From NCBI RefSeq assembly GCF_000003815.2, contig NC_049994.1:15232659-15296658 (forward strand): 64,000 nucleotides of DNA. Reading direction: 5' to 3'. The notes beneath the pieces were generated by a model, which was given only the letters and a program-made list of their open reading frames with translations, had not been told where the DNA came from and ran no database searches. This DNA comes from Branchiostoma floridae. Taxonomy: Eukaryota > Chordata > Leptocardii > Amphioxiformes > Branchiostomatidae. Below are positions 27,544 to 64,000 of this stretch, in pieces (position 1 is the stretch's first letter; each line of letters opens with the position of its first letter). A program made the position numbers and the translations under genes.

Positions 27544-28869
27544 TCACTCGATGTCTTCCACGCTGGCCAAGGCTTCAACAGCTGGCGTCTGCACTGACTT
27601 TGGCGGGGCTACGAACAGCACATCTGCGCGACTGGAGCTCTGTGCGTTTCTCGGATTCTCTGTTGGTCTTCGAGGGAATACCCGTCTGGCCGGCTGGTCA
27701 GTCCGATTGCCCGTACTCGGTCCAGCGGTTCCCATTCCTCGCGGCGCTCCGACCACCTGAATGTTCACCACTTGATTCGATGACCAGCCAAACTTTTCAC
27801 GCACCGCGTTGGCGAGTCGTCGCGCCCTACGATGCATAGCGTCTCGAATCTTCTCGATCCTGAGTGCGTAGATGACCGGATTGATAACCGAACTGCAGAG
27901 ACCGATCAACATCCCCCATTTTGGCTTTGCCTCCATCTCACAGTCTACCCTTGCAAAGCACAAAAACTGCCGCACCATGTCGATGCAGAGCGGCAGCCAG
28001 CTTACGACGAACACCGCTGCAATAATGACAACTGTCACCTGCTTCTTCTGACTGTGTAGGAGGTGCTGGAATTTTCTTGCAGCAAGTCGTTGTTCCCTGC
28101 GTCTTGCGGCGGGGAGGTTGTCTTGAGGGCTCTCGGTAGCCATGGGTCTGGTTCTAGAGATGCGCCGCTTCAGTACGATGAAGATTCTGACGTTGGTGAA
28201 GATCACTATCACTACGGCCATGAACAAGATGATGTTGATAAGGATGAGGTAGCCCACTGGTACCTGCCCTATGCAGTTCTCTGTGTTCATATCAACATCG
28301 ATGCAGTTCCAGCCCATGGCAGGGGACAAGCAGACAAGCACGCAAACTGTCCATGCGATCCCCAAGCTCACGGCAACGTGTCGCTTGGACATGCGGGTCT
28401 GGTAGAATATCGGGTGGAGGATGGCCAGATAACGGTCCACGGATAGAAGGACCACGCTAACTGCTGATAAGACCAGCACTAAAAGGAAGGTACAGACTAC
28501 GCTCACTGATGTCAGTGGTTGAGGCACTTCCGTCTGGAAAATGGCACAGAAGAAGAACGAGAAGAAACCTGCCGCGCAGTCCGCCACAGCCAGGTTTGCC
28601 ACGAACAGGTGCATGGGTTTGGACAGGTGGTGGTTTTTCAGCACCCCGGCCAGGACCGCGCCGTTCATGAGGAGAGCGACTGTCCCGACGGTGGCGGCGA
28701 TGATCCCGACTTTCCGGTTCTCGTCCAGATGCGGAGCTGGCAGATGAGTACAGGAAGTTACCGCCAGGTCGTAGTCAACGTTGCTTTCTAGCTGCCCGCG
28801 GAAGCAAGGCCAGAAAGACTCGAACACCGTGGAGTTTCCTCCGGTGAAGTTCGCGGTGCTTTCGTTCAT
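27544..28869 (-). CDS. Single-exon class A GPCR, MECA/lysolipid-receptor type
   Basis: 441 residues from the ATG at 28869; the reading frame stays open 5' of it through a TTG. Several N-glycosylation sites (NES, NFT, NST) precede TM1. TM1 carries LLMNGAV, TM2 LAVADCA, TM3 ends SVDRYLAILHPIF. TM4 ends LSPAMGWNCI, the GWNC motif typical of EDG (S1P/LPA) and GPR3-type receptors, TM6 has VSWLPLC and TM7 SSVINPVIYALR. There is no Cys at the start of TM3, as in EDG and cannabinoid receptors. ICL3 is basic and the C-tail of about 100 residues is Pro/Arg/Ser-rich. It couples an extracellular ligand, probably a lipid or amine, to G proteins; the exact ligand is not assignable. Confidence 0.92.
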   Translation of the reverse strand: MNESTANFTGGNSTVFESFWPCFRGQLESNVDYDLAVTSCTHLPAPHLDENRKVGIIAATVGTVALLMNGAVLAGVLKNHHLSKPMHLFVANLAVADCAAGFFSFFFCAIFQTEVPQPLTSVSVVCTFLLVLVLSAVSVVLLSVDRYLAILHPIFYQTRMSKRHVAVSLGIAWTVCVLVCLSPAMGWNCIDVDMNTENCIGQVPVGYLILINIILFMAVVIVIFTNVRIFIVLKRRISRTRPMATESPQDNLPAARRREQRLAARKFQHLLHSQKKQVTVVIIAAVFVVSWLPLCIDMVRQFLCFARVDCEMEAKPKWGMLIGLCSSVINPVIYALRIEKIRDAMHRRARRLANAVREKFGWSSNQVVNIQVVGAPRGMGTAGPSTGNRTDQPARRVFPRRPTENPRNAQSSSRADVLFVAPPKSVQTPAVEALASVEDIE

Positions 28870-29590
28870 CCTCAAGACAGCCCTTTCCTCTCCCTATGGC
28901 AAGAAGGACTGATTTGGGGCTTTCCACCTTTTCTTCTAACTCATGACGACTTCGGCTACATGACTTTCTACAATAATCTCTCGGGTCTACTGACAACTGA
29001 GGAAAATGTAGTACATTGTATTTTGCTTCTGTACGTCAGTGTTACCACGGCTTCACACCTGCCACATGTGTTGCCATGACAATCAACAGTCACGATTTGC
29101 TTGTCACCCATTTGATCAAAATGTCAATCCGAGCGAGAATGCTGTGGTGCTGGACACAAACATAGCTCAGGGTTTTGCCCCCTCATAGCAAATACCAATC
29201 CCTTTCAATTACAAATTGCCACAAGCTTTTCATCCATGTCTTTAGAAACATGTCTGAACGGAGGTGACGCATATAAGGCCACAGCCTGGCGCGCACGTTT
29301 CATCCACCCACCGTACACGTGGCCTTAAATATATATAAAGTCCTTCTACAGTAATAGTTTCTTTCACCGGACAGCAAACTTACGGAACTCGACGATACCT
29401 GTTTCCCTCCTGTCTACAACTTATCAGCCTTCAAAACAAATGTCCAAAGCTACCTCCGTACACAGTTTCCAACTTTTTAGTTCATTCCATTGAAGAAGAC
29501 AGAAGCCTTAACCTTGTGTGGAGAGCAAGAATACAAATGACTTATAACTATTAAAGTAAAGCCCTAGCCTCATGCATAGCTACGAAGACA
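28870..29590. other. 5' flank of the single-exon GPCR
   Basis: Presumed promoter and 5' UTR of the minus-strand receptor. No clear TATA box or conserved element is seen. The DNA upstream of about 29,300 is AT-rich without genes. Confidence 0.4.
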
Positions 29591-34666: not shown

Positions 34667-34846
34667 CTACGACATGGGCTCCACGTAGTTTGCCGGCAGC
34701 ATGCCGCTCTGTCCGGTACGCTGCACCGTCCCGGTCATCCACCCGTCGTCGATCTTCACGCAGTTGACAATGACGTCACCGTCCATGAAGCTGATCTCGT
34801 CGTCCTCAGCGGCGGTGTAGTCGAACACCGCGCGCATCACGTTTTG
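34667..34846 (-). other. Nebulin C-terminal SH3 domain exon
   Basis: After a CCCACAG acceptor the exon encodes [20 protein letters not shown] and continues with [20 protein letters not shown] to the stop TAG at 34667-34669. ALYDY-, WxxG- and PxNYV-type ligand-binding residues are all present. The [14 protein letters not shown] string is characteristic of nebulin/LASP/NRAP-family SH3 domains, which bind Pro-rich partners at the Z-disc. Confidence 0.95.
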
Positions 34847-37800
34847 CTGTGGGCGGGAATGATACAAGAAGTTAAGATCATTTCATGCTTAATGGTAAAG
34901 GTAGTGCCGAGGGTTGTTTTAAAGGCCATATACACCTTTCTCACGCGGCGGCCATGATAGATCGAAGAAGAGGTCAATGAGGCAAACAGACAAAACTTAT
35001 TTCTAAAATCAGGTCCCATTTAGTTTCCCCCCAAACCACACAAATTTTCATGATATAAGATAGAATAATAAATATTACAAGAAGTGTTATGCACCGAAAG
35101 ATGTAGCAATTTAGAGTAGTGTAGACTGACCCCATAGTCCCTTAAGAGATGCAAAATAAAAACATAATAATGCAAATCTTTAACGAATTTGCAGCCATTC
35201 ACTTACTGGTCGATTTCCTAATTGGCAGGCTACCATTGGTCGAACTGCTAATTAAGATGGACAGCCTTTTGTTTGCCACATTGAACTCGTTTTAGATCTA
35301 TCATGGCCGCCGCGTGAGAAAGGTGTATAGGGGCAATAGATTCTAATCCACTGTGTCTGGGGCATGGTATTGGGGGGGTGGAGCCTAACCCTCTCCTCCC
35401 ATCCGCTTTTATCTTCCTAAACGAAGTCAGGTACCCATTTTCCCCCAGCATTTTTTCATGCTTAAAGACCTGTAATAGTTTCTATATTGCTCACACGATA
35501 TTGTACAGGTACATGTTGGTTTTCACGATTGTACAACGAACTCGGCTGTACAACAAGCCAAAGGAAAAATGAAAGCTTTGACACGACTTGCACTTGCAAA
35601 TAAACTTCTACTGATTATAAGCATAGCAAGAGAAGCTCTACTTCTATGTAATTATCATCAGTGTGAATTCAACAAAGACATAGAGTTTTTTCTTGTTGTT
35701 AGAATACGTACCCCTGACTGGATTGTTGGCTCTGGTTCACTGACAGCAGCGGGAGCCTAGAGGAGGGGTCAGTAACAGCAGCACGGTCAGGTTAGGCGCT
35801 ACTCTACTACAGGGGTCTAGAATAAGTCACACAAGCGAAAGGTCTTCTGCTTTTAAGCCCCGGTCACACATGGTCGACAAAGGCCTCCCGAATTTCTTCA
35901 GACCATAGTTCATAGTTATCAAGGAAGCTCATCCGGTGGCACTGCTTGGGGAGTGGTTGGAAGAAAAGTCATACATGGAAAGGTTCTGTATGTGTGACAA
36001 GGGCTTAAGACAAGGTACAAGCTAATAGATGGGAAAGAAGGCTTTCAACATCTTTTAATCACTTTCTGCTGCAAGCAAACAATATACAGTAACACATAGG
36101 AATGACGGCTCTAGTGTTATTGCATCAAACAATGTAAGGAAATCACAACACTTTAAACTGCAAGGAGATTAACATATCATAGGAATACCTTTTACGAAAC
36201 TGTGGTAGCATAGATTTTGAATCTTGCACAACATTTACTACTGATTAACAGCCATAGCTCAGACACAGAAAAGACCTCTACGTTACAACATACATATCAG
36301 CTGTTGTTAGGGAATATTAAAGAGTTCTAAGGCCTCACCAATATATTTTCTTGTTTCTCGCACTGTTTAAGGCAAATATATAAAAGGTGGACATCTTAAA
36401 AGCAGAGGGCGGAGAGGAAAACTTGAGAAGGACTGTATTCACTCCATGAAACTGGGGTTAGCAATGCATAAACCTTGTCCACAGGTTTTGTTTTCATTAT
36501 GTTGTTTTTCAAGTTAGAAACTTTGAGCATACATTTTTAAAGTCTGGGAACCAACAACTTGGATTGGTGTGGTCGAACTTAGAAATACCAGTCTGCGATG
36601 GTCAAAGACTGGTATTTCTGGTACATCTTTCAACAGAACAACGTTGTGAGAAAGTTGTAAGACGGGCGAACGTACCTCAAACTTAGGCTGCTGTGCATCA
36701 GGATGGGTCATGGGGTCGTAGTCTTCAATCTTGCCTGGCTTCAGCCTGACCTGTTGGTAGCCTGAGTAATGAGGGAAACGGGATTCGTTAATCTTTGACC
36801 CACTCATGATACCATGGAGACCTTTCCTTCAGCTTAATGGTAGGAGTATACCCAAAAAGTGATTTTTGTTTTTCTTTTTACTTAATGGTCATTACGTAAC
36901 AAGGCCTGAAGGCCACTCAAGGTTACGGGTTACACGATTGTAACTGTAACAGCATCTCTTCTCCCTATGTCAGAAACATCATGATTGAGACCAGCCCAAT
37001 TGCTCACTATGAGTGAGGACTAACTGACCCAATATGCGAAGCGCGGGTTACGAGGGCTGCTCGGGAGATTCCCTACCCCATTTTGGCCGGAATGATTTGA
37101 AATCTGTATGCCTTGGTTGATAACTTGATACCCAAGCAGCGACCTGTATACCGTATGACTGGTGAACCATCGTGAAGTAACAAAACCCATTCTTGCCAAA
37201 TTGGCAAGCTCAGAGAGTACTGTTTAAGCAGTAGTTAAACCAACCTTCAAGCAACATTGGAACAAGTTTTGCCAATGGCATTGTAAGTCCTTGTTAATAT
37301 TGCTTCTAATAAGCAAGGTACATGTGGTTCACAACATTTGTGAACTGTATCTATAAATACTAGATGACAATTCCTTCTGAATTCATTCAATATAAGTTTA
37401 CAACTAGATAACTGTATGTAAGTCTTCAGTTATGACAAAACTATGAACAACTAATTAGATGGTCAAAGCTAGAAATGGGGAGAAAACTATATCATATAAC
37501 AATATTTAGAAGAGGATCATACAGGATGTTATGATATCTTGCACAGCAGCTAAAAGAACCTAACATTTCATTTTAATGACAATCAGCTGTCCCCAAAGAT
37601 ATCAAAATAATAATGTACTGGGTAGTCCTGCAATAGCTTGAATAAAAAAATGACTTGAAGAATTTGTAGCTGAGTAGGCCTCTAACCACTGAAGAAGTTG
37701 TGAGCAAAGACACCTGGTCTGGGTGACAGACTAAATAAAAGTTCTTTAACAAGATCTACACATGTATGCAGCTCCAGATGTCTTACTTTACATTCTCTTC

Positions 37801-46800: not shown

Positions 46801-49800
46801 ACAACATGTTTTACATGATGACTGTGTCAGCATGCATCATGAAGACATACAGTGAGAAGTGTTACCACAGTGAGAAAGGTAGTAACAAAGGTTATAGAGA
46901 AAGTGGTGGACAAGTATACATGTAGTTAAGAGATGCATTGTAACATGGGTGCACAGCTTGGCTATTTGTAATTTGTATGGCCCAGCTGCACTAGCTTCCA
47001 TTGTTAGCCAGCAGTTATACAATGGTGTCAATAGGAATTGCAAGCCAACAGGGGGGTTGATATGGTAGATAATCAATGTCAGTTGCTATTGATGAGGCAC
47101 AACCACAAGGAACTCTACGATGGTATCACCATGCATGCTAAAGTGAATCAGAAATATGTTGTTTAATGATTAACATGTAGTACTAGATGTAGTGTTACAG
47201 ACAAATGCAACTGATGTTAACATTCTGCAGACTTATTCACGGTGACAACATTACACAACTCCACAAAATGAAACATAGAACGGTACTGGCCACCATGTAA
47301 TATATGATGTCTATGTGTGATGAAATACAACAAGATGTACCTACAATGTAAACATGTACATGTAGTCTGGTAAAAGTGCACTTTTGAGCACACAGTATAA
47401 ACTACATGATTCTAAGCAAATGGTATATGGCAAGTAGTAAGGCTGTGAACTGAATACAATGCCTATAACAAGATATGGAATAGCTACATGATGGGAACAA
47501 AATGATTGCACAAGTTATACAGTGGATGTAACATGACTACTGCACAGTCTGCATTGAAGAAAATTGATGGTTCTGAGACAAAGCATGGAGACGTAAACCT
47601 TACCTCCTTACCCAGAGAGAAGTAGATTCCAAGATGTCTTAAAAATTGCTAGACAAGCTGTTAATGCAATGTAATCATCTCAGTCATGTGGTTGTAATGA
47701 TTTATGAATGAAGAATGGTACCACAGCTACTGATGCGCCAGCTTCCAAGTGTCATCTTAGTTTTTGGACTGCTGAGATTCAAACTTTAATAATATTATTT
47801 GCTCATACTTAAGAAAGGTTAGGAGCTTGGATTTTTAACATCTTGAGCAGATCTGAAGTATGCATTGTAGTTAATTGTCCCGAAAGAAATTTCTCACACA
47901 GAAAATGGAAGATATAGTGTTTGATCTATATTGTTCTTGTTTCGATCAATTTAGCATTAAAGGTGGCCCAAACACAGAAACTGCAGATGAAAATGACTGT
48001 ATCTATGTTGCTTTTCAATCTGTTCCTCTGAAAATTTGTACTACTTCAAAGTACCCCAAATCAGACAAATGGGGCAGCCTTAACATGGTGGAGCAGCTTA
48101 CTTTGTATGGAGATAGGGAGTATCCTTTTTTTTTTAACTGTTCCTTTCAAAGTTACCCAAAAAAGACAAATGGGACAGCCCAGACAACCTGTAACACTGG
48201 TGGAATGACTTACTTTGGATGGAGATAGGGGGGTTCTCCTGCCTGCGCATGCTGGCCAGGTGCCGGGCCTCCTCCTCCTGTTGTTGTTGTAGTTGTTGTT
48301 GCATCATGCGTTCGTGCCCGTCCTGGATACTCATGCTTTCCATGCGGTGGGTGGGGTCCATCACTACAGTACAGGTGACCACAAACTTCAGTGCACAACA
48401 TGCTTCAGGCAGTTACCACACAGGGGTGTGACCACACAGTTAAGTACAGAGTCAAGCTCACACATACTAGGTTACTTGTAAGTAAACATTTCCCAACTAG
48501 TAGCTTTGTGACTCCAAGATCCTAGCACACACGTTAGATTGTACCAAACCTTCTAAAATGATTATTGCCATGCGTCAACCTCTAGTGATAATGTTTTATA
48601 CTTTACAGTACAAGTGCAAACAAACTGTGACATGTGACCTCTGAGATACAGATATTAGCTTTTGCCTTGAAGTTGTAGTAAAATGTACATTCTGCAGTCC
48701 AATTTCACACACAATTAGCATGACAATGAATTATGGAGTTGCAATTCCATTCAAGATTGGTGAATGCAAATGTTGAATGGGCATGTTGTACAATTTTGCA
48801 AGGCACTGACGCACATTTCTAAAGATTAGTCAATGGCATAATCTTAAAGAATTTTGTACATTGTTAGTAGAAGTGCATAATACTGAGTGCATGATCAAAA
48901 AACATTATTATCACATGCACCTCTCCTTCTTCTGCTAGGTAGACTTACCTGACTTTTTTCTTTCTAACAAGAAGGCCACTCAAAAAAGGGACATACATTG
49001 TACTTACCTTAGTTACAAACCTTACTTACCTCAGTACCTCACTGCCTGAAAGGAAATAACAATCTTATCTCTCCCTTGCCCTGTTGGTATAAGAGGGTTG
49101 TGTTAACTTCACTCTAGGACTTGTCTGTTAGAACTCACGTGTTCCGAGCTGCTGCCCTGCCGGCTGTGGCATGGGGTGTTCCCCTGGGATCATCTGTCGC
49201 CGCGACTCCATCGTCTGAAGCTTCTCCTTGACGCCCTGGTACGCCAGGTTGCTCTGGATCACCGTGTTCTTCTTGACCCGCGTCAGCTCCGGGTCGTCGA
49301 TTACCGTGTGGTACGCCTTCCCCTTCTGCTTCTCGAAGTCCTCATGGTACTTCACCTGGAGGGTTCAGAGGTCGGAGGTTATGACATGGTGTTTCTATTA
49401 CCACGAGGTCAAACCCAGTTCTATTTGACAAAGTAACATAGAACATCGTGTCAGCCATTTTGTTTGCAGATAAAAGAGCTCAAGGGTTGCAGTATGAGCA
49501 AAATGGCAGACATAATGCTTATTCTGTCCAAAGGTCGAACAAGATTCTATTTAGTAGAGGTCAAACATAGAGACAACATGTCAGCCATTTTGTTCACCAC
49601 AGAGGACTCTTCAGGTATTTCACTTGAAGGGGTTTAGAGGTGAACAAAATGGCTTACTTGGCATTGCTGATGTTCTAAAGACAAACAAGGTTAGAACAAG
49701 CATGATCAACGTCACTGTTAGAATCAGGCAAAATGGATGGGCAGTCTTGTTCCTCCAAGTATCCTTTGTAAGCTGTAGCTACTGGTGTTGAAATGGCTTG

Positions 49801-52800
49801 TAATTTAGCAACAACCTCAAACACCACAAGTTCCAAGATCATGCTATACAAGACATATGGAAAAGAATCATGACATGGAATGTCCTCTCTATAAAGTGTT
49901 CTCAGTGCACTATTTTAACTTCTTTGAAAAGGTAGCGAGACATTCAAGTTTTAATCAAGAAATTGCAAAAGATCAATATACGCAATCAAACATTTTCATT
50001 CACAGTGAGGGTAGAAAAAACATTGAAAATCAGGCAGTATTTGTATTTTTGAAATCCTCTTCATGCTTACAATTAACATGTCATGAGATAATACAACATG
50101 ATAAACCTATGAAATGCTGAAAAGGGAACAAACATTATAAAAATCTAACCAAAATCCATGCTTTGGCACAATAGATGGAAATGTCAAAAATCAATCTTTT
50201 TGACATCACAACATCATGCTACACATCATGTATACACAGCAACAGTTTCAACCCTAATTCACACAACGGCTGAGTCTCCAAGTCTACCTCGCTGGAGATC
50301 TTTGTTGCGTTTCTGATTCTGGCCATGTCCGGTGTGTCCAGGACGGCATTGTACATGTTTATCTTCCTCCCCTTCCTGTACTCATTCTGTGGAGGAAAAT
50401 GGCGGATTGCCATGGCAACAAGTCAGTACAAGAAGAATAGATATGGAATATATACTTTACTTGAAACCCTGGGTGATTTCATGGATGAAAATGACTGAGA
50501 AAATGAAGAATGGTTTTCCAGGATTTGAGTATGACCCACAAAATGAGATGAAAAACACTGTATCACTTCTACACAATATCATATGGAAATTGACTATCGA
50601 CTTCAGGCTAAGTGATACAATAAAACCGGAATAAAGGACAACCATTGGCACAACAGAAGACCAAATCTTTTCTACCATGTCTGTACTTTCATGATGAGAA
50701 ATCTAGAATCTAGAACAGTTGCTTTAGATCAACAAAGATGTCCCTGCAACAGTACACAACAAAGGAGACAACTTGACACTCAGGACATGAGACCAACAGA
50801 CTTACAAAACCATATGTCCACATGACAAGCCACAACACTTTCTTGTTGTATGAGCCAATATATATATACAATCCATCAAAACTAATGCAGACTGAAATTT
50901 TGCAAGATGTCAGTAACGCAATTAACAACAGTATTCTGACATTTCCACATCAGTACAGGAATACACCAAATGCCTTGTAACTTTGACACACTGTACAGAC
51001 TTTTGTCATCTTTTTTCAAATGATTAGTAAGTCTTGATTCCACAGGACACTACTGGTCTGTAATCTAAACAATTGCCATGTATCTACAACAAAAGAAAGA
51101 CATAAACAGCTAACTGAAGGCAACACAAAAACAACTTCACAACAATTGACGTTTCAGCACCATGAACAGCGACACCCACACCACAAGTCTTTACCTCACT
51201 ACTTAGTTTGGAAGCTCTTTTGATCCTTTCGTAATCCATAGAGTCCATGATGCCATTGGTACCAGTAAAAGTACCCCTGCCCTTGCTGAAGTCCTTTCTG
51301 TACAGGGTCTGGTCGTGTCAAAATATAGAGACGGTTATTTTCAAAAGCAACTTTCACAACTAGTTGAGCATTGGACCTTCCACTGTCTCCCAAGAGTCAG
51401 CAGCTTTACAGACCCAATAAACAGGCAGAACTAACAATAGTAAGAATCTCAAGACAAATAACCAGCCATGATTTGCTTTGAGAATACAACACAAGAAATT
51501 CAAAACAATAACCTAGCAAACGCAATGAAAAAAGGCCCAATACAATAAATTTGACCTTTCTCCTTTTTTTTGAAGACACTAGGCTATACCATTTTCGTCA
51601 CGGCATTCCAGTTCAGCATTCCGGTTCAGTCGAACATTTTCTTAATTTATCAAGCTACCATGAAATTGAAGCTCTTAATATGCTAGGCATAAATTACATG
51701 TCTTAACATAAAAGGAATGTATGGGGAGCTCTGTAAGCAAAGGGGGTAGATTAGACTTACAGTTTCATAACAATTAATAAAAACAATATATCCTTGCTAG
51801 TTTATGAACTAGGGTGTTTTAAGGTGTAAATGTTTACTTACTTGCAGCAAATTATGTTTCAGGGAGTAAAGAGCACTTTAAAGAGTAAAAAAAAAGCATC
51901 ATAAGATTGCAAATTTTCTTGGCATTGTAGGGGCAGCCGGCCTACATGGCACAGGGTGGTTGTTGATAACTTGCAGCCAATTAATTATCTTTGATGGGGA
52001 ACACATAAAGCATCTTAACGGAGTAACTACTGCATCTTAAAAGTTTTCTTTCTTTGCACAGGCTCATGAAGGGGTAGCCAATAGATAAAGGGCAGGGTGG
52101 GGCGTTCGTTGGAGATACCTTACAGCCAATTACCTTTCAGGGGAGGAAAAAAAAGCATCTTAGATGGGGTAAGGTCATAGAAGAAAGCATCTTAGAATTT
52201 AAAAACGTTTCTTTCTTAGCATTTTGGTTTAAGGAAGGGGCAGCCTGCGTCATAGGGGAGGGGGGCGTAGTTGATAACAGCCAATTATATTTCAGGGGAG
52301 TAAAAAAGCATCTTACAGGGGGAAAGAAAAAAGCATCTTTGTAACTTTTCTTTCTTGGCATTTTGGTTTAATAATGGGGCAGCGTGAGAGGGGAGGGGGT
52401 GTTGTTGATAACTATCAGCCAACTATCTTTGAGGGCAGTCAAAGAAGAACAAAAAGCATTATATAAAACTGCGACAAGTTTTCTTTCTGGCACGGGAAGG
52501 TCAGCGAGTTCAATAGGCACGGGGTGGGGGAGGGGGGCAGTGTTGATACCTCGCTCTGTATTTTGGTGTTCCGTCTGATCCTCTCGGCATCAATGTCATC
52601 AGTGACCACGTGTAACTTTCCGACCTTCAACTCTTCATCGCGATACTGGAGCTGATGTTTCCATGGAAATGGGGCATTTTATGGACCGTGATGAAGTTGT
52701 AAAATTACTAGCATTCAATATCCAATAAGAGAAAAGCTTTCAGCATGAAATAATCTATTTTTACCATGTTGCCAGCAAAGCTTCTCTGGACTAAGCAGAT

Positions 52801-55800
52801 GAACATACTTTGATAGAGCAGGGCTTATTGATTGGAGCAAGGGCTATTATAAGGGTAAATACAATTTCAAGCAAATTGCTTTTATCTAAAATTTCCTTCA
52901 TTCCTTTCTTCAAAAACAGTCTTAACTCTGCTGAACTTTTATGAAAGCTAAACTTTGCTAGGACATTTACAGTACCCAACAAGTCATGAAGACCCTGACT
53001 TTAAGGCACATTCATGTTCAGGGAAGCACTTTATTTAAAAGTTATGGCAAAAAGCTTAGGGTACTAAACGTTGGCACTGGGGATAGTAGGGTGGGGTTTT
53101 CTTGTACCTCGCTCTGTATTTTGGTGTTCCGTTTGACGCGCGCGGTGTCCAGATCGTCTGTAACTGCTGTCAATCTTCCTGCCTTTAACTCTCGGTCACG
53201 ATACTGCACCTAGTCACGTAACCGGGGGAAACGGGAGGGTGGAGATGATCATATGTAATGGAATGATGGGAGGTCACAGTCAGCCATTTTTAGTGTGTCA
53301 AAAGTCAATTGAAAGGTCATTAACAAAAATCCGTGTGGTCCATAATTTTGTATGGTGCCACCTTTTTGAAGTTAATTTGACAAAAACTGTTTTGAAATTC
53401 AAAGCATTTTAGCATTGAAACAATCCTAAAAATCTAACTCTGTGACAGCTGTTTTGCTTGTTAAGAGAGAAAAACGATACAGAAGTATGGTTTGAAGACA
53501 GACTGTGATCTCAGAGAATGGAGAAAAAAGTGGAATAGTGTGGAGAAGACATGACTTTGAACTGTAGTCATCTGATAAAAGAACTAGAAATATTTCAAGT
53601 CTGCTGACCTCATTTGTTTTTTCAAACAACAGAAATTGGTGGAAATTTTACATTTCCAAGCATTTTCAGATGACGAGTCATCAATTTAAAATGTTTCCCT
53701 ACCAAAAAATTACTGTTAATCCAGTTCAAAGTCATGCAAATCAAGAAAAAAAAGAAGATGGTACAGTGGATTATAGTCAGTGAAATATCAACACATAGCC
53801 AGAGCCATTCAGTTACTTGGATCTTGAATCTGATCTTTAAGAAAAGTTAAAAGTGTCTTTAAGATTATCTGAAAGAAAACCAAGCAATGAAACATGTCTG
53901 GCTTAGTGCTAAGATTGTTGATATTCCATTAGCTATAATGAAGATGAAGAATCAGAAATGCACATGAGAATGAAGCAGAGTCGCAATGGGGTGAACCGGG
54001 AGGGTGTGGCTCTAGGTTGCCATGGCAATGGGAAACTTTGCACTAGGCCAGCAACTTTACAAAAGATATGTCTATGGGGTATTCTTTTACCATACATGTA
54101 TAGAGCTCTTTGAAGCAGCTTGGTACATGGGTTGTTTACAAAAAGGAGCTTCAATACTCATTTTAGAGCCATACAGTAGGCCATTATCAGAGTGCTTTTG
54201 GGCAGGAAACTTGCAAAAGGGTAGCAACTTTACTAAAGCTAACTATGGGGTATCTTTACCTTACATGTGTGCTCTTTTAAGCTGTTTACAGAAAGGAGCT
54301 TCTAGGTCGCCATACAACAGGCCATTACCACTGTGCTTTACAGCTTTAGGGGAGAGGAGATGAATGATTTCCAACCATTATCAGCAGACCATTGCCTTAT
54401 AAGGGAAGGGGGCGATTTTCCTGGGGGGGGGGGTCTGTATTTACCTCGCTGAGCATCTTGGTCACCCCCTTGATTCTGTTCATTTCCGGATCGTCCAGGA
54501 CGTTGGTGTAGCGGGCTCCAGTCTTCCTGGTCTTCTTGTCCCTGTATTGCAGCTGGGGGGGGGGGGGGGGGGGATTCCACAGGTTTTATGGACATGTCCT
54601 TGGTGAAGAGGTGTCATGCTCATCCGCAGACCAAGAAAGTAGTATCCAGACTTTCTCTGCCATAACAGTTTTGATGGACATGCTCTTGATGGAGAGACAT
54701 CATGCTTATTCACTGACCAAGATGATATAGCGTTTTTCTCACATCCTTTACCTTAGACGACCATTATCAAGAACTTGCCTCCCGAGCATCTTTTTAACCA
54801 GAGGGTTTTCAGAACTGGTTCAACACACATGCTCTTGAGGATGCCACTAGGACGTCATCATAACCACTAAACCAGCATCTCAACACAGCAGTTTGCTGTG
54901 ATATGCTGATGGGTACATCATGCTTATCAACAGGCCGGAACAACATCATCCAATCTTCCTCTGCCACACGAATCTACCACAGGCAGTCAAGAATCTGCTC
55001 CTTCAGAATATTTGTCTCAGGCATTCTTGGTACCATCTAGCAGGCAATGTATTGAGTAAACTACTTAGTATAGACTTTGAGCATTCCTGTAATACTGATC
55101 ATCAACAATTTTTTTCTGTGATGCAATAGGATGCTTAAACAGCCTTGTAAGGTCAAAGACCATGTACATTGTACCCTATAACCTCTTTCTCTAGTTCATG
55201 TTATGAGATGCAGATATGACATGGAGGACCAGACATGCTCAAGACATGTTCCATTGTCATCATTACATCTAAAGATTGTATATTTTCAAGAATTCATCAT
55301 ATACCGGTACCCCTAGCAGTCATGCCTAAAGGTTCATCTATAGCAATGCACTTTAAACTTAATTTATAAGTCTTTATATATAGGTATAGGTAGACTCCAC
55401 AGTAATTGTCATGCTTAATTGCCATAGATTGGAGTCACATTCAACCGAGCTGTACCTGTATATACTTCATTCAGAAACAAGTTAACATGCTATTTCTCCA
55501 TCTTTTTCAGGTTTGTAGATTGAACTACGTATGTACCTCACTCTGGAACTTGCCAACGTTCTTCATACGGTTCAGTTCTGGATCGTCCAGAACCGTGGTG
55601 TACCGATTCTTTTCATCAAACTTTCTCACTGCTACCTGAGCCTACGTGTTGTGAGGAAAGGTGCAGATGAGAGAAAGAAAGAAAGAAAGAAATGAAACAA
55701 AATGACAGCAAGACTCAATAAGAAGGAGAAACAGAAAAGCAAGGTAGTTATAGGACAAACAATACAGAAAAGAAATACACAGCTCCTTTAATATATTTGG

Positions 55801-58800
55801 TTACAAAGTTCACGTCCTCTTCCAAAATGTTTCATATATTGTTTTTGTTTCTCATGTTGTTCAACCTTGCAAGGCAGGGATAACCAACAATTTGTTTATT
55901 TGTTTGTGTTTACCTCTGATGCATAGGCATTTGCCTCCTTCAGTCTCTTCATCTCTGGATCCTGCTGGATGGTTGTGTACTTGCCACGCCCCTTGCTGGC
56001 ATCGTCCTTGTCCTTAATCTCTCCATAGAGAACCTTAGGAATATCCCAACCAGCCATTGTTTGTTTATGTTACAATTCACTAGACATTAGCTGCTGATTA
56101 GCCATTGATACAAGATCAGGGAAAGCCCATCACATTGTCTGTGCTGACTGGATTCTGCCTCCAAAAGGCACTTAACCATTCTCACGCTATTCATACTAGT
56201 ATTAAAGCATTCCAGATGTCAAGAATGACCACCAGACCACAAAGGTACAACCATAGCTACAAGCAGATTCAGTAAGCCCAACCTGTGTTGGTCGATCTTC
56301 GACATAAGAGACTGTGCCATGCTATTCACAAATAGAATATGTTTATCAAAAAGCTGTACTGCTTTGAGGGGAGGACTACATGTAAGTATGTAGTATATTT
56401 AAGGCAAGCATCACTTATTGAGGATTTTGACTGCCAATTCCCCAACATGAAACTTTCCCAATCACAAGCAGTTTTCTGAAAACATTATGCCTTCCGACAT
56501 AATCCAAAGTCCAACACCTAGACTTGTATTTGATATCAAGTCACACAACATTCCTTGTGGCAGGCATGAATACCTGGCTTTGGAACTTTCCAACTTCCTG
56601 GAGGCGCTTGAGTTCGGGGTCGTCGATGGCGGCATGGTACTTCTGTCCATGTTGCTCCAGGCGAGTGTGGCCATAGTGGATCTATTGAGAAGTGAATTAG
56701 GCAGAGGAGAAAGATATAGACACCGAAAGGGACAGCCAGCAATACAGGTAGGAAAAATAAATGATCAGCCATTCAAAATTAAGAAGAAAGCGTTAAGACT
56801 AAAATAATATAAAAAGAAATGAAGGGAAAAGAAAATAGGCATGCATCTAACAAAGGTTAAAATAGTGCTACCAATAACAGTGTACACATAAGGGTGTTTT
56901 GGAAGGTAAGCTAGGGATAAGGTGCACTACATGTACATGTGTAAAGTTGCTTAAAGGTATACATGGCATGATTTTTCCAATTTTCTAATGTCAATTTTCC
57001 TTGAAGAGCACAAATCTTGCCTTGTATACTTTTATTGTGAGCAAACTGAAAGAAAAGCATTACAGGCAGGCAGAAAGGTTTCAACATAAACAAAACAGAG
57101 AGAAGAGAGATAGAAAGGAACAACAAAGAGCAACAGGTGTCCAGCAAGTGGTGTGTAAGAAGATGGGAAACAGTACACAGATAGATAGAAGGCATGAGAT
57201 GCATCAGAGCAAAGAAAAAAACACCAGAGAGACATGGTGGAAGAGAAAGGTTTAGGTTCTGGGAGCAGTTGGAAGGATGGAAGAGGAGAAAGCTTCTTCG
57301 AAGGAAGAGACAGTGGTCTACTGTAGCTTTGGTTTGGTTTGGTTAGCTAGGCGGATCCTACGACTACAAAGTAAGCTTCTTCTACGAAGGGAAGGGACCT
57401 CGTCTACTCTTGTAAGGCTTCCCTAACTGTTTAGTACTGTTAGTGGATAGTTTCGAGGTCCATGTACCTGACAGTAAGTGAGCGCCTCAGGGTCTGCCAT
57501 AGTGCACACCGTCCACGTTGGCTGCCTATATCTTGTTGCCTCCACGACCTTATTATTGTTATTGTTCCCATTCAAAGCCGCTAGGTCCTCATCGAGGGTG
57601 CGCACTATCCCCCGCATCGATTGCTCGTGGAGTTCGATAAGACGGCGCACCATGTCCTGGGTCATGGGGGTGTCATCATCCTCCTCCTGACCCCCATCCC
57701 TGAGCGCCTCAGGGGGAGTGTCCGAGCGGCGACTCGTAACCGACACCCCTGGTTTCTCATCTTTCACCGCCCCTGCTGACTTCAAACCCACCTGCTCTAT
57801 CGTCTGTTTCACCTCTTCTACCTGCTCTTTAGTCTCTACGACATCCCCACCCTTATATATAACCTCCAGCTCCGCCTTTCCAGCAGAGTCGGCCCCTCTT
57901 AACTCCTCTCCGGACAGGCTAAAACCTACCTTCTTCTTCCCACGGTATTTAGGCGCCCCTTTACTACTGCTTGTACCCTCAGTATAGGATGGGATCTCTG
58001 GTTCACGATGCTTACCAGAGGCAACATCTTCGTAGAATTTGGCCATGCTTTCAATATCTAGGGACCACTGAGGTTCCTCAAACTGTGTGCTTTCTGATAC
58101 CCTATCCCCGAAAGAGCTCTCAAAAACTTGCCTTTGGTATTCAGCCTGAGCGGTAACTTTGGACAGAGTCAGGGCCCGCTGTGTCTCTGGATCATAAAGG
58201 ACTGTTGTGTAGCTACCTTTAGTTTCCTTAAACCTCTTTTCATAGTTAACAAAGCTGTCTAGACGCGAGATCTCGATAACGCGGCTGTTCTCGGAGTTGA
58301 ACAGCAGGGTCCTGTAGTTGCTGGTTTCGATGATGAGCTCTTCTTCGAATGCAACTAAGTTGTCAACCCTGGTCAGGTCTATGAGACGTAGGACCACCTT
58401 GTTTGTGGCACGTTTGACAATGGTCTCAAAGCTTTCCACGTAATCGTTGCGGAAATCCTTCTGTGATGAGATTGAAGACAAGTTCATGGCCTTCTTTGTG
58501 GCTGGGTCGTACAAAACTGCAACATGAGGCCCAACCTGGTGCGTGAACGCTTCCTTGTACTTGTCAAGGTGCTGGATTTTGGATATTTCCATCACATGCC
58601 GTGTTTCTGGGTCATACAAGATGGCATTGTAGTTCGCCTTTGCGATGTCATAGTCCTCGTGGTATCGGGTGACACCGATAGCCTGGGACATTTCGATTAC
58701 CCTTAGGATGGACATGTCTATGCTGGCGGAGTACGCAGCCCGACCCTCCATTGTTTGAGGGTAGTCTTTGCGATACCTAACCGAGCTCTGAACCTGGGTC

Positions 58801-61800
58801 AGGTCAAGAGCCCGCTGCGTTTCTGGATCAAAGAGGATCGTCGAGTATTTCCCCCTGCCCTTCTGGTGCTCTTCCTGGTACTTTGAAAGGCTCAGGATCC
58901 TCGAGAGTTCGACCACACGTTTGGTTTCTGGGTCATACATAACGGTGGTGTACTTGTCCTTATCCCTGAGGAACTCCTCCTGGTACTTTATCACACTCTG
59001 AACATTTGAGATGTCGATGAGTCTCAACAGCTCTTTGTCACCGTATGTAGAGATGTGAGGCCTTCCTTCGAATGTAATCGGGAAGTCCTTCTTATACCCA
59101 ATCTGTGACTCTGTCTTTGACAGCTCAATGCATCTCCTAGTCTCAGGATCGTAGATGATGGTTGCGTAGTGTCCTTTCTCTTTCTCGAAGTTCTTCTTAT
59201 AGTTGACGTAGCTCTGTATTCTGGTCAGCTCAAGGACCCTCTGCGTCTCAGGATCATACATACAGGTGGTGTAGTCGCCCTTAGACAAGTCATACTCTTT
59301 CTGGTATTGTATCAAACTCTGTAGTTTAGTGAGCTCGATGATGCGCAGCGTCTCCTTGTCGTCAGGAATGGGGATGTAGGCTGCCCTGCCTTCAAACTCT
59401 TGTGGGAAGTCCCTCCTGTATAAGAGAGTGCTCTGAACTCGGGAGGCTTCTTGTGCATGGCGGGAGTCGATGCTGTCAGTTGCCAGAGTGTACTGTCCCT
59501 TCTCTTGCTCAAACTGCTCGTGGTACTTGAACACACTCTGCATCTTTTGCATCTCAATCACCCGTTGCGTTTCAGGATCGTAGAGAACAGTTTGGTACTG
59601 ACCAACATTCCTCTTGTACTCATCCTCGTATTTGACCAGACTCTGGACTGCTGACAGTTCAATGACTCTCTGTGTCTCTGGATCAAAGAGCACTGTTGTG
59701 TATTTGCCCTTGTCCTTCTTGAACTCCTCATGATACTGTGCCAAGCTCTGAAGCTTGCTCACGTCAACGAGACGGAGGATTTCCTTATCAGCCTCATCAG
59801 CGCCCTTTCCACCGCGGCCTTCCATGCCAACAGGGAAATCCTTCTGGTACTGAATCTGACTCTGCAGTTTCGTAGACTCTACCGCTGTCTTGGTACGGGG
59901 GTCCCACAAGACAGTTGTGTAATTTCCCTTATCACGATAGAACTGCTCCTGATAGTTTATCAGGCTCTGGACTCTGGAAATCTCAAGGAGTCTCTTGGTT
60001 TCCGGGTCGAACAGGATAGTGGTGTAACCACCCCTTCCCTTCTCATACTCAGAGCGATACTCGGCCAGGCTGTGCAGTTTGGACATCTCAACAAGCCTGA
60101 CCATTTCCTTGTCTGTTGTGGATGAAGTGTAGCCAGGCCTTTGTTGATACTCCAGCGGATAGTCTCTCCTGTACTCGAACGTGCTCTGGAGATGAGTGAC
60201 ATCGGTGGCTCTACGAGTCTCCACATCGTCCGTAATCTGCATGATGTTGCCCTTTCCTTTTTCGAAGTCCTCGTGGTACTTGAAGGCGCTCTGGATTTCA
60301 GACATCTCCATAAGGCGTTGTGTCTCAGGATCAAACATAATGGTGGTGTACTGACCCTTCGATCTCCTGTAGTCCTCTTCATATTTGATCAGGCTCTGGA
60401 TGGAGCTAACCTCCACAACCCTCTTAGTCTCTGGGTCGTAAAGGACAGTGGTATAGTTGCCCTTGCCTCTCTGGAACTCCTCTTGATACTTCGACAAGCT
60501 CTGGAGCTTGCTGATGTCCACAAGACGCAGGACCTCCTTGTCCTGGTCGTCTATCACACCAGCATCTCTTCCTTCCATGGCAACTGGGAAGTCCTTTTGG
60601 TATTCCAGCTGGCTCTGAGTTTTGGATAACTCTACCACCCGCTTGGTCTCAGGATCGTACAGAACGGTGGTGTAGTTGCCCTTCTGTTGTTGGAACTGTT
60701 CTTGGTATTTCACCAGGCTCTGTACGTTTGAGAGCTCCATGGTTCTCCTTGTTTCTGGATCAAACAGAATCGTGGTGTAACCGCCTCTTTCCTTCTCGTA
60801 TCTCTCGTGATAGTTGATCAGGCTGTGAAGCTTGGTCATGTTCACCATCCTGACCACCTCTTTTTCGTCGGCAACAGGAGTGTACTGTGGCAGCTGTGCC
60901 CGAGCTTCCTTCCCGTACTCAACTGTACTCTGGAAGTGGGACACCTCCTCTGCCCGTTTTGTCTGAACATCATCTGGTATCTGTGAGTAGATGCTCTTGC
61001 CCCTCTCAAAGTCCTCCTGGTATTTGAAAGCGCTCTGGATTTCAGAAAGCTCCAAAAGACGCTTGGTCTCTGGATCGAACATGACAGTTGTGTACTGTCC
61101 CTTATTTTTTTTGTACTCATCTTCGTACTTGACCGCGCTCTGAATTGAGGACAGTTCAACCACCCTTTGAGTCTCGGGATCGTAAAGAATGGTGGTGTAT
61201 TTTCCTTTGCCCTGCTCAAACTCTTCCTGGTACTTGAGGATGCTGTGGAGTTGAGACATGTCCACAAGACGGAGGATTTCTTTGTCAGCCTCTGCACCTG
61301 ACTGTGCAGCCCTACCCTCCTTGAAGTCCTTCTGATACTCGACCTGGCTCTGAATCTTGCCAACTTCGATGGCACGTTTAGTCTCAGGATCGAAGAGAAC
61401 AGTCGTGAAGCTGCCCTTTTCCTTCTGGAACTGTTCCTGGTATTTGATCAAGCTCTGGATTTTGGACAGCTCAATCAGACGTTTGGTTTCAGGATCGAAC
61501 ATCACAGTGGTGTAAGCACCCTTTTCATCTTCATACTCCTTGTTGTACCGGATGAGACTGTGGATTTTCTGAAGGTTCACAACTCTCAGCAGCTCTTTGT
61601 CATCAGGGATCGTTGTGTAGCCCGATCTACCTTCGTAACGAAGCGGGTAGTCTTTCGGGTACACCACTGAGCTTTGGACCTTAGTTATCCCTGTCTGCCT
61701 CCTTGTCTCAACATCGTCAACAACCGATGTGTATTGGCCCTTTTCTTTTTCATACTGCTCATGGTAATGAACATCGCTCTGCTTGCTGGACAGGTCAATG

Positions 61801-64000
61801 AACCTCTGAGTTTCGGGATCATACAGCACAGTTGTGTATCCACCCTTTTCACTCTCAAACTCTTCCTTATATTTGAGGAGACTTTGCACCTTTGACAGTT
61901 CCAGAACACGCTTGGTCTCAGGATCGAATAGGACAGTGGTAAACTTGCCAATGTCATCCTTGTGCTGTTCTTGGTATTTGATCAAACTTTGCAGTTTTGT
62001 AACATCCACAATTCTCAAAGTTTCCTTGTCGGCAGCCAACGACTGGTACTCTGGACGACCTTCGAACTTGGACGGGAAGTCTTTCTGATATTCGCTCATG
62101 CTCTGCCACTTAGAAACAGACCTAAGACGTTCAGATTCAGGATCATCTGTTACAGTTCTGTAACTACCCTTCATCTCATGATACGCCTTCTGGTATTCAA
62201 CATTGCTCTGTATCTTTCCAACCTCCTGAACACGTTCGGTCTCCGGATCGAACAATATGGTGGTGTATTTTCCCTTGTTCTTTTCGAATTCCTCCTGGTA
62301 TTTGTTGATACTCTGGATTGAGGAGAGTTCCACAACTCGCCTGGTTTCTGGATCATACAGGACAGTGGTGAAGTCTCCTTTGTCCTTTTCATACTCTTCG
62401 TGGTACTTCACAACACTGTGCAGCTGCGACATTTCTATCACTCTCAACATCTCTTTGTCAGGGACCATTGTGTAGAAGGCCTTCAGTTTCTGATATTCTT
62501 TCTGATATTCTGTCTCGCTGGCAAACTTGCCAACATCCTTGAGTCTCTTGCTGTCAATGTCATCAGCAACAGAGTGGTACTTGCCCTTCTCTTTCTCATA
62601 CTCGTCATGGTAAGATACTAAGCTCTGTATCTTTGACAGCTCTGTGAAACGCTGGGTCTCAGGATCATACAAGATGGTGGTAAACTGGTCCTTGTCCTTC
62701 TGATACTCCTTCTGATAGGCAATTGCGCTCTGGATACTGGACAGTTCAACCACCCTCTTGGTCTCGGGATCAAAGAGGATCGTCGTGTACTTGCCCTTGT
62801 CTTTCTCAAACTCTTCCTGATACTTCAGCAAGCTGTGAAGCTGAGACATCTCCACCACTCTGACTGTCTCCTTGTCTGCAACAGGAGTGTACCCTGTCCT
62901 TCCTTCAAACTCTTGAGGGAAATCCTTTTGGTACTCCAGCTGGCTCTGATACTTCCCAACATCCTTCGCTCTCTTGGTCTGCACATCCTCTTCCACAGAG
63001 GTGTACTTTCCTCGTAGTCCACGGAACTCCTTCTGATATTCTACATCGCTCTGCCACTTTCCAACCTCCTTGTATCGCTTGCTTTCAGGATCGAACAACA
63101 CTGTGATGTAATTGCCCTTGTTTTTCTCAAACTCCTCGTGATATTGCACTGCACTTTGTAGCTTGGAAAGCTCAACCACACGTTTGGTTTCTGGATCAAA
63201 TAGAATGGTGGTGTACTTTCCTTTCTCCTTATTGTACTCATCAGTGTAGTGCAGGAGGCTCTGAAGTTTGTTGACCTCGACGATTCGCATGTGCTCCTTG
63301 TCATCAGGAGCTGAGTGATAGATGCCTCTCTCTTCCAACCACTTCCTGACATACTCATACTGGCTCTGGTGGCGGGACACCTCCCTGATCCTCTCAGACA
63401 CAGGATCGTCAGTGACCAGCTGGTACTGACCCTTGTCTCTTTCAAACTGTAGATGGTACTCATTTAAGCTCTGAAGCTTCGACATCTCCATCGTGCGGGA
63501 GGTCTCTGGATCGAACATTACAGTCGTGTACTTGTCTTTGTTTGCTTGGTATTTCTTCTCATATTGGATGACGCTCTGAATGCTTGAAAGCTCCACGACA
63601 CGCTTAGTCTCGGGATCGAACAGAACGGTTGTGAACCTGTCCTTGTCTTTCTCGAATTGCTCCCGATACTTGATGAGGTTGTGGAGCTGGGACATCTCGA
63701 CCACGCGGATGGTTTCCTTGTCGGTTACGGGGGTGTATCCTGCCCTCTCTGTCATCTGTTGCGGGAAGTCCTTTTGGTATTCAAGCTGACTTTGCAGTTT
63801 GCCAGCCTCCGTTGCATGTTTGGTCGCAACTGTGTCTGCAGTGGCTGTGTACTTGCCACGGAGGTCTTTGAACTCTTTCTGATACTCCACATCACTGGCG
63901 AGTTTGCCCACTTCCTTGTATCGCTGAGACTCGGGGTCAAACAAGACAGTGATGTAGTTGCCCTTGTTCTTCTCAAACTCTTGCTGATAGTAATTCATGC
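34667..64000 (-). CDS. NEB: Nebulin, C-terminal 2,854 residues, 21 exons, 5'-incomplete
   Basis: Giant actin-thin-filament protein of striated muscle. Exons: >64000-57468, 56681-56574, 56033-55914, 55641-55537, 54552-54445, 53209-53108, 52651-52550, 51308-51195, 50386-50288, 49355-49139, 48363-48214, 46470-46396, 44736-44647, 43015-42941, 41608-41579, 40865-40770, 40158-40141, 39942-39883, 39572-39474, 36761-36676, 34846-34667. All introns are GT-AG and phases match throughout. About 64 modules of ~35 residues with the S-x-x-x-Y actin-binding signature are followed by a linker and an SH3 domain, as in vertebrate nebulin. The 5' end is outside the window: the first residues visible already lie inside a module. 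The two bases before the first full codon are also open. Confidence 0.93.
34931..35328. mobile_element. ~400-bp MITE in the last nebulin intron
   Basis: The left end CACCTTTCTCACGCGGCGGC with following CATGATAGATC is an almost exact inverse of the right end ending GCCGCCGCGTGAGAAAGGTG. TA flanks on both sides fit a mariner-type element. Noncoding. Confidence 0.75.
36581..36619. repeat. Perfect 14-bp stem hairpin
   Basis: AGAAATACCAGTCT at 36581-36594 and its exact inverse at 36606-36619, with an 11-base loop, 57 bases inside the intron after nebulin exon 36761-36676. Confidence 0.85.
37988..38560 (-). mobile_element. Internally deleted mariner transposon
   Basis: Terminal inverted repeats (about 33 bp, starting CGAGGGGCGTGCAATTAGTA) are flanked by TA at 37986-37987 and 38561-38562. 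On the minus strand, 38382 to about 38170 encodes a mariner transposase N-terminus, including [20 protein letters not shown] and [15 protein letters not shown], ending PRPGRPSC. A different frame near 38150-38061 encodes its C-terminus ([15 protein letters not shown]). The catalytic core between them is deleted, so the copy is non-autonomous. Confidence 0.88.
41261..41475. repeat. 40-bp minisatellite, ~5.4 copies
   Basis: The unit, TTTATTTTGGATTGAGGATG plus TACTTCAATTAAAACAGCAA, repeats with few substitutions at exactly 40 bp spacing, in a nebulin linker intron. Confidence 0.95.
43080..43410. repeat. Inverted element rich in GGGCAAGT/ACTTGTCC
   Basis: The left end GGTTGGACAAGT mirrors the right end ACTTGTCCAACC. 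Several internal copies of GGCAAGT and ACTTGCCC lie in both orientations. It is probably an interspersed MITE-like repeat in a nebulin intron. Confidence 0.55.
44808..44970. repeat. ~20-bp minisatellite (TTCTAAGAGGTG units)
   Basis: About eight imperfect copies of TTCTAACAGTTCTAAGAGGTG-type units next to the acceptor side of nebulin exon 44736-44647. Confidence 0.85.
48045..48225. repeat. Duplicated donor end of nebulin linker exon
   Basis: 48045-48121 and 48150-48228 share CAAATGGG-CAGCC, then CTTACTTTG-ATGGAGATAGG. On the minus strand the second contains the real exon end (CTATCTCCATCCAAA/GTAAGT, 48214). The first is an intronic relic with a GTAAGC donor. Confidence 0.7.
51830..52550. repeat. 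~160-bp tandem array running into a nebulin splice donor
   Basis: Four to five diverged copies share GCAGCCAATTA..TTTCAGGGG, AAAAGCATCTTA, CTTTCTTGGCATTTTGGTT and GGGGAGGGGG..GTTGATA. The last copy ends at the donor of exon 52651-52550, whose intron start (GTATCAACACTG) is therefore part of the repeated unit. Confidence 0.75.
54030..54335. repeat. Tandem duplication ~170 bp in nebulin intron
   Basis: Blocks GCAACTTTAC-AAA, CTATGGGGTAT, ACATGT, AGAAAGGAGCTTC and CAGGCCATTA occur in the same order in both halves. Confidence 0.65.
54555..54573. repeat. 19-base G run at a nebulin acceptor
   Basis: On the transcribed strand this is a run of 19 C directly before the AG of exon 54552-54445. A second run of 11 G (54423-54433) lies just beyond that exon's donor. 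Confidence 0.9.
57468..64000 (-). other. Giant nebulin exon with ~55 modules and a 220-residue tail
   Basis: At least 6,531 coding bases (2,177 codons) without an intron, open at the window edge. Residues 1-1957 (63998-58128) parse into 55 modules of 34-38 residues, of four recurring types. A and B carry TT(V/I)(L/M)(F/Y)DPETxR. C carries DD(V/I)xxxR. D carries a DKExxR motif, often preceded by KDFP and EGR. Residues 1958-2177 (58127-57468) leave the repeat pattern: acidic, Ser/Lys-rich, with an asparagine run and a predicted helix ([20 protein letters not shown]). The exon ends in phase 0 at CTGTCAG/GTACAT. Confidence 0.92.

Follow-up and report, generated by a model that had tools for sequence, protein, structure and literature searches.

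A 97-module open frame with changing repeat periods in the nebulin gene of Branchiostoma floridae

The seven-module super-repeat of vertebrate nebulin spans 38.5 nm (PMC7109182), and a length of about 1 micrometre has been proposed for nebulin (PMC9140763). The window analysed here, a stretch of 64,000 nucleotides representing the plus strand of the B. floridae genome, carries on its minus strand part of a gene which is the nebulin of an invertebrate chordate, built mostly on the vertebrate plan. The gene has many PF00880 modules of ~35 residues, seven-module super-repeats and a C-terminal SH3 domain of the LASP/nebulin type, as expected of a giant skeletal-type nebulin, and its predicted exons follow a vertebrate-like order, from seven-module super-repeats in exons of one or two modules through C-terminal simple repeats to SH3. 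The same gene contains a giant open frame. Coordinates past 64000 continue the window numbering into 230 kb of upstream DNA that were added to the analysis; the genome searched comprised 513 Mb in 431 contigs. The features around the giant frame are as follows.

57426-72659 (window-continued), minus strand: giant open frame of 5078 codons, with its stop codon at 57423-57425
57426-64000, minus strand: C-terminal part of the giant frame inside the window, an open reading frame
68565-72659, minus strand: leader of the giant frame, about 1365-1370 residues, preceding the modules
68564-58140, minus strand: 97 nebulin modules of the giant frame (modules 39-135), by segmentation
57426-58139, minus strand: unique C-terminal tail of the giant frame, beginning after module 135
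56574-56681, minus strand: next downstream nebulin-module exon, phase 0, boundaries predicted from sequence only
49263-56012, minus strand: eight more module exons of the C-terminal simple-repeat type, by exon segmentation
34667-34882, minus strand: last exon, SH3 domain, best PDB matches LASP1, nebulette and nebulin

Pfam PF00880 identifies the modules at 58140-63998 (minus strand) as nebulin repeats (E 6.3e-89). A reading of the window made before any search, hereafter the sequence-only reading, had estimated about 55 modules there, which is the number obtained by segmentation (modules 81-135 of the 97); the frame runs beyond the window. Extension into the upstream sequence, which that reading had proposed, followed the giant frame to its full 97 modules and revealed canonical super-repeats, 211 PF00880 modules being segmented upstream. 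Nebulin-module matches extend to about 222 kb (window-continued), giving a gene span close to 190 kb, parts of which are hidden by runs of N (18.3 kb at 157403-175750 and five shorter ones).

The leader is rich in E, P and S and contains internal repeats, five copies at 39-base spacing. It had no Pfam family above the cut-off, only a single chance match at E 0.14, and the tail (57426-58139) had no Pfam match at E 1. Among the best candidates scored in the two genome searches (34 of 35 and 24 of 27), the leader matched only itself, and the window part of the array matched only itself and other parts of the giant frame. PDB searches, in which one upstream super-repeat and the stretch of the frame inside the window served as queries, matched no nebulin-module structure. 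Downstream of the nebulin gene lies a single-exon rhodopsin-type GPCR (27544-28893, minus strand; PF00001, E 6.2e-34). Eight RAG1-like fragments were also seen in this genome (contigs C165, C11 and C6), seven of them with internal stop codons.

The amphioxus nebulin treated by Hanashima et al. 2009 and by Bjorklund et al. 2010 probably comes from the same gene. No description of the giant exon was found in the amphioxus, lancelet or Branchiostoma nebulin literature within coverage, outside which lay Hanashima 2009 (Gene, J Exp Biol) and Bjorklund 2010 (J Mol Biol). These papers are the most likely to describe a giant exon with mixed periods, which is not claimed here as unreported.

The module order given by the sequence-only reading (BCD, five ABCD sets, ABD+ABCD three times, ABD three times, AB) was recovered by an independent segmentation. 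ABCD sets are called tetrads here, ABD sets triads, combined seven-module sets heptads and 8-module units octads.

63669-63989, minus strand: modules 81-83, being B, C and D, by segmentation
61548-63668, minus strand: modules 84-103, five ABCD sets, for which 8-module units of two alternating tetrad halves are the better description
59307-61547, minus strand: modules 104-124, ABD+ABCD three times, 245, 251 and 251 residues, lag 7
58350-59306, minus strand: modules 125-133, ABD three times, lag 3
58140-58349, minus strand: modules 134-135, being A and B, by segmentation

The module lengths agree with the 245, 251 and 251 residues (747 in total) earlier assigned to the three combined sets at 61556-59316; counted from the D module instead, the heptads measure 248, 248 and 251 residues. 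Periods were assessed by comparing lag similarity with that of shuffled module orders, using 2000 shuffles per block (p floor 0.0005). The 4-module period earlier read in the N-terminal part visible in the window was present in modules 79-102 (lag 4, p 0.001), but lag 8 was stronger (z 7.3, p 0.0005) and an 8-module unit fits better. Modules 103-123 had a strong lag 7 (z 6.6, p 0.0005), with lags 3 and 4 alone at p 0.21 and 0.15, modules 124-135 had lag 3 (p 0.002), and modules 49-64, beyond the window, had lag 2 (p 0.0005). Signals in the remaining blocks were weak (modules 39-48, lag 2, p 0.04; modules 65-78, lag 4, p 0.03). The periods along the giant frame are 2, 4/8, 7 and 3 (modules 49-64, 79-102, 103-123 and 124-135), making it a natural case of repeat units that differ in module number along a single frame, so that a possible constraint of the tropomyosin period on nebulin becomes testable within one molecule and across amphioxus species. 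Eight two-module units of 73 residues were noted at 65727-67478 (window-continued), with a mean protein identity of 80% and fourfold sites near random.

That the module missing from the 3-module sets is C, as first read from the sequence, was confirmed by a core motif, by type scores and by alignment of triads with tetrads. The [FYW]DP.T core occurs in 22 of 25 A/B modules and in all seven second (slot-2) modules of the triads (29 of 32 combined); it is absent from C (0 of 9), D (0 of 16), modules 39-78 (0 of 40) and the upstream modules (0 of 211), a distribution which argues that the A/B type is derived. Leave-one-out typing within modules 79-123, which excluded modules 124-135 and the slot-2 modules of the triads, was correct for 40 of 42 modules, both errors being a B called A. 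The best-scoring type of the slot-2 modules was A in four of seven and B in three, never C or D, and C scored 14-28 bits under the best type in all seven; in module 119 B scored about as C did, with A best. Alignment gaps made module 133 unscorable for every type and modules 124, 127 and 130 unscorable for three of the four. Identity of the first three triads to tetrads was 0.505 when C was removed from the latter (0.474, 0.454 and 0.415 for removal of B, A and D), and for all seven triads it was 0.455 (0.422, 0.403 and 0.367, respectively). These comparisons support the reading of the 3-module set as a 4-module set without C. Columns 24 and 33 of the slot-2 modules are C-like, and these modules may be B-C fusions left by a deletion that ended inside the C module. 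Eight of nine C modules resemble the short modules of the 2-module array, which favours loss of C rather than its gain; D (14 of 16) and A (15 of 16) resemble the long modules of that array, a likeness not special to D.

The clustering by type that had been expected of a module phylogeny was clear for D, which formed a clade in both trees (support 85 in the protein tree, 92 in the DNA tree), but the other types, with modules of 35 residues, were weakly resolved. C modules (54) and A/B/slot-2 modules (49) formed clades in the DNA tree only, and in the protein tree six of the seven slot-2 modules fell inside a mixed clade with C and B (support 72). Only three of the seven heptad positions had their three copies in one clade. 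As a separate observation, of 171 typed upstream modules 120 carry the acidic residue of SD/SE-x-x-Y at their end; in 58140-64199 (modules 79-135) none of the 16 D, 16 A and seven slot-2 modules has it at the corresponding position, and it is retained by three of the nine B modules and one of the nine C modules.

The six tetrads split best into alternating halves (rank 1 of 10 splits, in protein and in DNA). When heptads were compared with the tetrad halves, the order of an octad minus C ranked 1 of 20 labelings in protein and in DNA, which corresponds to p 0.05 at best. Six of seven heptad positions agreed with the expected octad half, some by small margins, and the triad D sided with the wrong half. 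There is thus modest support for heptads as octads lacking one C, that of the first half; the octad and the polarity of change, likewise modestly supported, are additions to the earlier reading of C loss.

The canonical super-repeats lie upstream in two typed blocks.

About 146-214 kb (window-continued), upstream in the same gene: canonical super-repeat block
About 97-146 kb (window-continued), upstream in the same gene: canonical super-repeat block

They are encoded by phase-0 exons of one or two modules and comprise 14 module types (a-g and A2-G2). Counted by the first module there are 31 super-repeats (14 a-type and 17 A2-type), and 17 were seen complete (9 of 14 a-g, 8 of 17 A2-G2); six of the 17 A2-G2 sets lack only G2, cut by the exon finder. 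For the c and C2 exons a second round of exon finding with score cut-offs was used, and because some of the f and G2 modules were truncated or overlooked, 14 of the 31 sets are incomplete as recovered. Among the eight complete sets of the first block with a summable length, seven measure 245 residues and one 243. The two kinds of block fit the double expansion of super-repeats in B. floridae that Bjorklund et al. are said to have found. The first upstream type, including the QYPFTPEM module, was also encountered on another contig (C3:34186996-34189152), so that the genome has either a second nebulin-like locus or a duplicate.

These blocks bear on the further proposal of the sequence-only reading, that 4+3 by loss of one C shows how the vertebrate-type seven-module super-repeat arose. 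Three seven-module sets of 245-251 residues do exist and loss of C within the giant-frame array is supported, so that the 4+3 derivation stands for this array; as the source of the classical unit it is very improbable, because canonical seven-module units, made of 14 other module types, sit separately upstream in the same gene and no register of them matches the heptads better than shuffled order does. Over seven registers the best sum for one upstream block was 131, where shuffled orders averaged 127 (p 0.36), and for the other it was 79, where they averaged 112 (p 0.9994). All giant-exon module types score best on a or A2. The upstream modules g and G2 we take to be the counterparts of the vertebrate WLKGIGW module; on these the heptad types average only -2.2 to 2.0 bits, no giant-exon type resembling them, and the D modules, whose alignment with WLKGIGW-bearing modules the sequence-only reading had proposed to test, score -1.2 and -2.0 bits. 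The 4+3 sets do not present seven position-specific types in order, as judged against the upstream blocks rather than vertebrate sequences, nor one WLKGIGW-like module per seven, with g/G2 as the presumed counterpart. The agreement earlier seen with the 245-residue super-repeat carries little weight, since 245 is simply 7 x 35, the length of any seven 35-residue modules, and two of the three sets measure 251. The classical seven-module unit thus does not appear to derive from the seven-module groups of the giant frame.

The age of the copies was judged from differences at fourfold sites, for which random codons give 0.744; NG86 dN/dS, which overcounts twofold sites, was discarded in favour of this measure. 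The 2-module units differed by 0.697 at fourfold sites and 0.196 in protein (0.655 and 0.110 in their core, modules 53-62), octads by 0.758 and 0.442, heptads by 0.678 and 0.399, and triads (modules 124-132) by 0.750 and 0.588. For all pairs of the four upstream types measured, of 14, the fourfold difference was 0.12-0.47 and the protein difference 0.09-0.26. The protein identity of the 2-module copies, 80-89%, could be taken as a sign of recent tandem duplication or of homogenisation by gene conversion, but such an origin is hardly credible given fourfold sites at 0.655-0.697, close to the random value and far from the 0.12-0.47 of the four upstream types; moreover, Tandem Repeats Finder gave one 29-base array in 57000-64000. 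Near-random fourfold sites together with a conserved protein indicate that the giant-exon array is old and held by selection at the protein level, and judged by the same sites the measured upstream super-repeat modules were duplicated more recently. The array is an uninterrupted protein repeat with nearly random synonymous sites, the regularity of which has apparently been kept by protein selection and not by recent duplication. It is our guess that synonymous divergence shields such an intronless repeat from unequal exchange.

The heptads might also be a second, independent seven-module unit, an octad minus one module that was kept since seven modules correspond to one tropomyosin (seven actins). 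This would be a case of convergence on the actin-tropomyosin period, held until synonymous sites were near random, and both the strong lag 7 in modules 103-123 and the age of the heptad copies, with their fourfold and protein differences given above, are in its favour. It is nevertheless unlikely: there are three copies only, their lengths are 245, 251 and 251 residues, the other blocks of the giant exon have periods of 2, 4/8 and 3, and unequal exchange accounts for seven without selection. The link of the seven-module sets to the troponin-tropomyosin period, drawn in the sequence-only reading, found no support, seven being one of several periods.

The analysis shows which module types and periods occur, that C is missing, that the canonical super-repeats lie apart and that synonymous sites are near random; from this we infer an order of events. 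The array would have started as alternating long and short modules with period 2. A new type with the FDPET core would have been inserted as a pair (A, B) between the long (D) and the short (C) module, yielding first 4-module and later 8-module units. Octads that lost one C would have become 7-module (4+3) sets, and loss of both C modules would have given 3-module sets. The giant frame of 97 modules would have grown without introns near the C-terminal end of nebulin, each module would bind one actin, and, with the frame included in nebulin mRNA, a long actin-binding stretch would lie near the Z-disc. Module grouping would then reflect a history of duplication and deletion and not the tropomyosin period. 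To this account as a whole, from the nebulin gene and its intronless 97-module frame through the history of pair, octad and C loss to actin binding near the Z-disc, a probability of roughly 0.7 is assigned.

The location towards the Z-disc is suggested by closeness to the SH3 end, as for the vertebrate linker and simple repeats. At 38.5 nm per seven modules the 97 modules would measure ~0.53 micrometres, and the 211 upstream, 97 giant-frame and 9 downstream modules together ~1.7 micrometres; as this exceeds the ~1 micrometre proposed for nebulin, the giant exon may be optional. Exon 56574-56681 would join in frame to the exon preceding the giant one (SQ|IHY), with the giant frame skipped. It is quite possible, if not favoured, that the giant frame is a gene nested on the same strand and almost free of introns, or else a promoter-specific isoform with its own ATG. 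An ATG stands three bases into the frame (72656), the flanking exons join without it, the frame starts and ends in unique sequence, and some 390 bases beyond the stop, at 57036, there is an AATAAA/ATTAAA signal. Against this, no TATA[AT]A was found ahead of the ATG at 72656, the frame is on the same strand and in place within the nebulin module order, and a phase-0 acceptor-like site at 72608 and phase-0 donor-like sites in the tail at 57792 and 57468 make a cassette exon equally possible. These three sites rank at the 24th-30th percentile of the gene's own sites, on a score trained on 161 exons of this gene which is too permissive, a control stretch giving ~21 acceptor-like sites per kb. The nested-gene or isoform alternative is a matter of the gene model and does not conflict with the proposed history of duplication and C loss.

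Compared with known systems, the giant frame shares with the vertebrate central super-repeats (seven modules, WLKGIGW; PMC7109182) nebulin modules of ~35 residues and seven-module sets of similar length. It differs from them in that the amphioxus sets are 4+3, of other types, within one frame and in three copies, and in that the heptads have no module like the presumed WLKGIGW counterpart (g/G2). With the upstream super-repeats the array shares the gene and the repeat family, whereas the upstream blocks have seven distinct types each, one or two modules per phase-0 exon, and, for the four types measured, fourfold differences well short of the random level. Like the vertebrate linker and simple repeats M163-M183 (PMC7109182), the giant frame lies near the C-terminus and outside the canonical super-repeats; unlike those about 21 modules, it comprises 97, all in a single frame and grouped with short regular periods.
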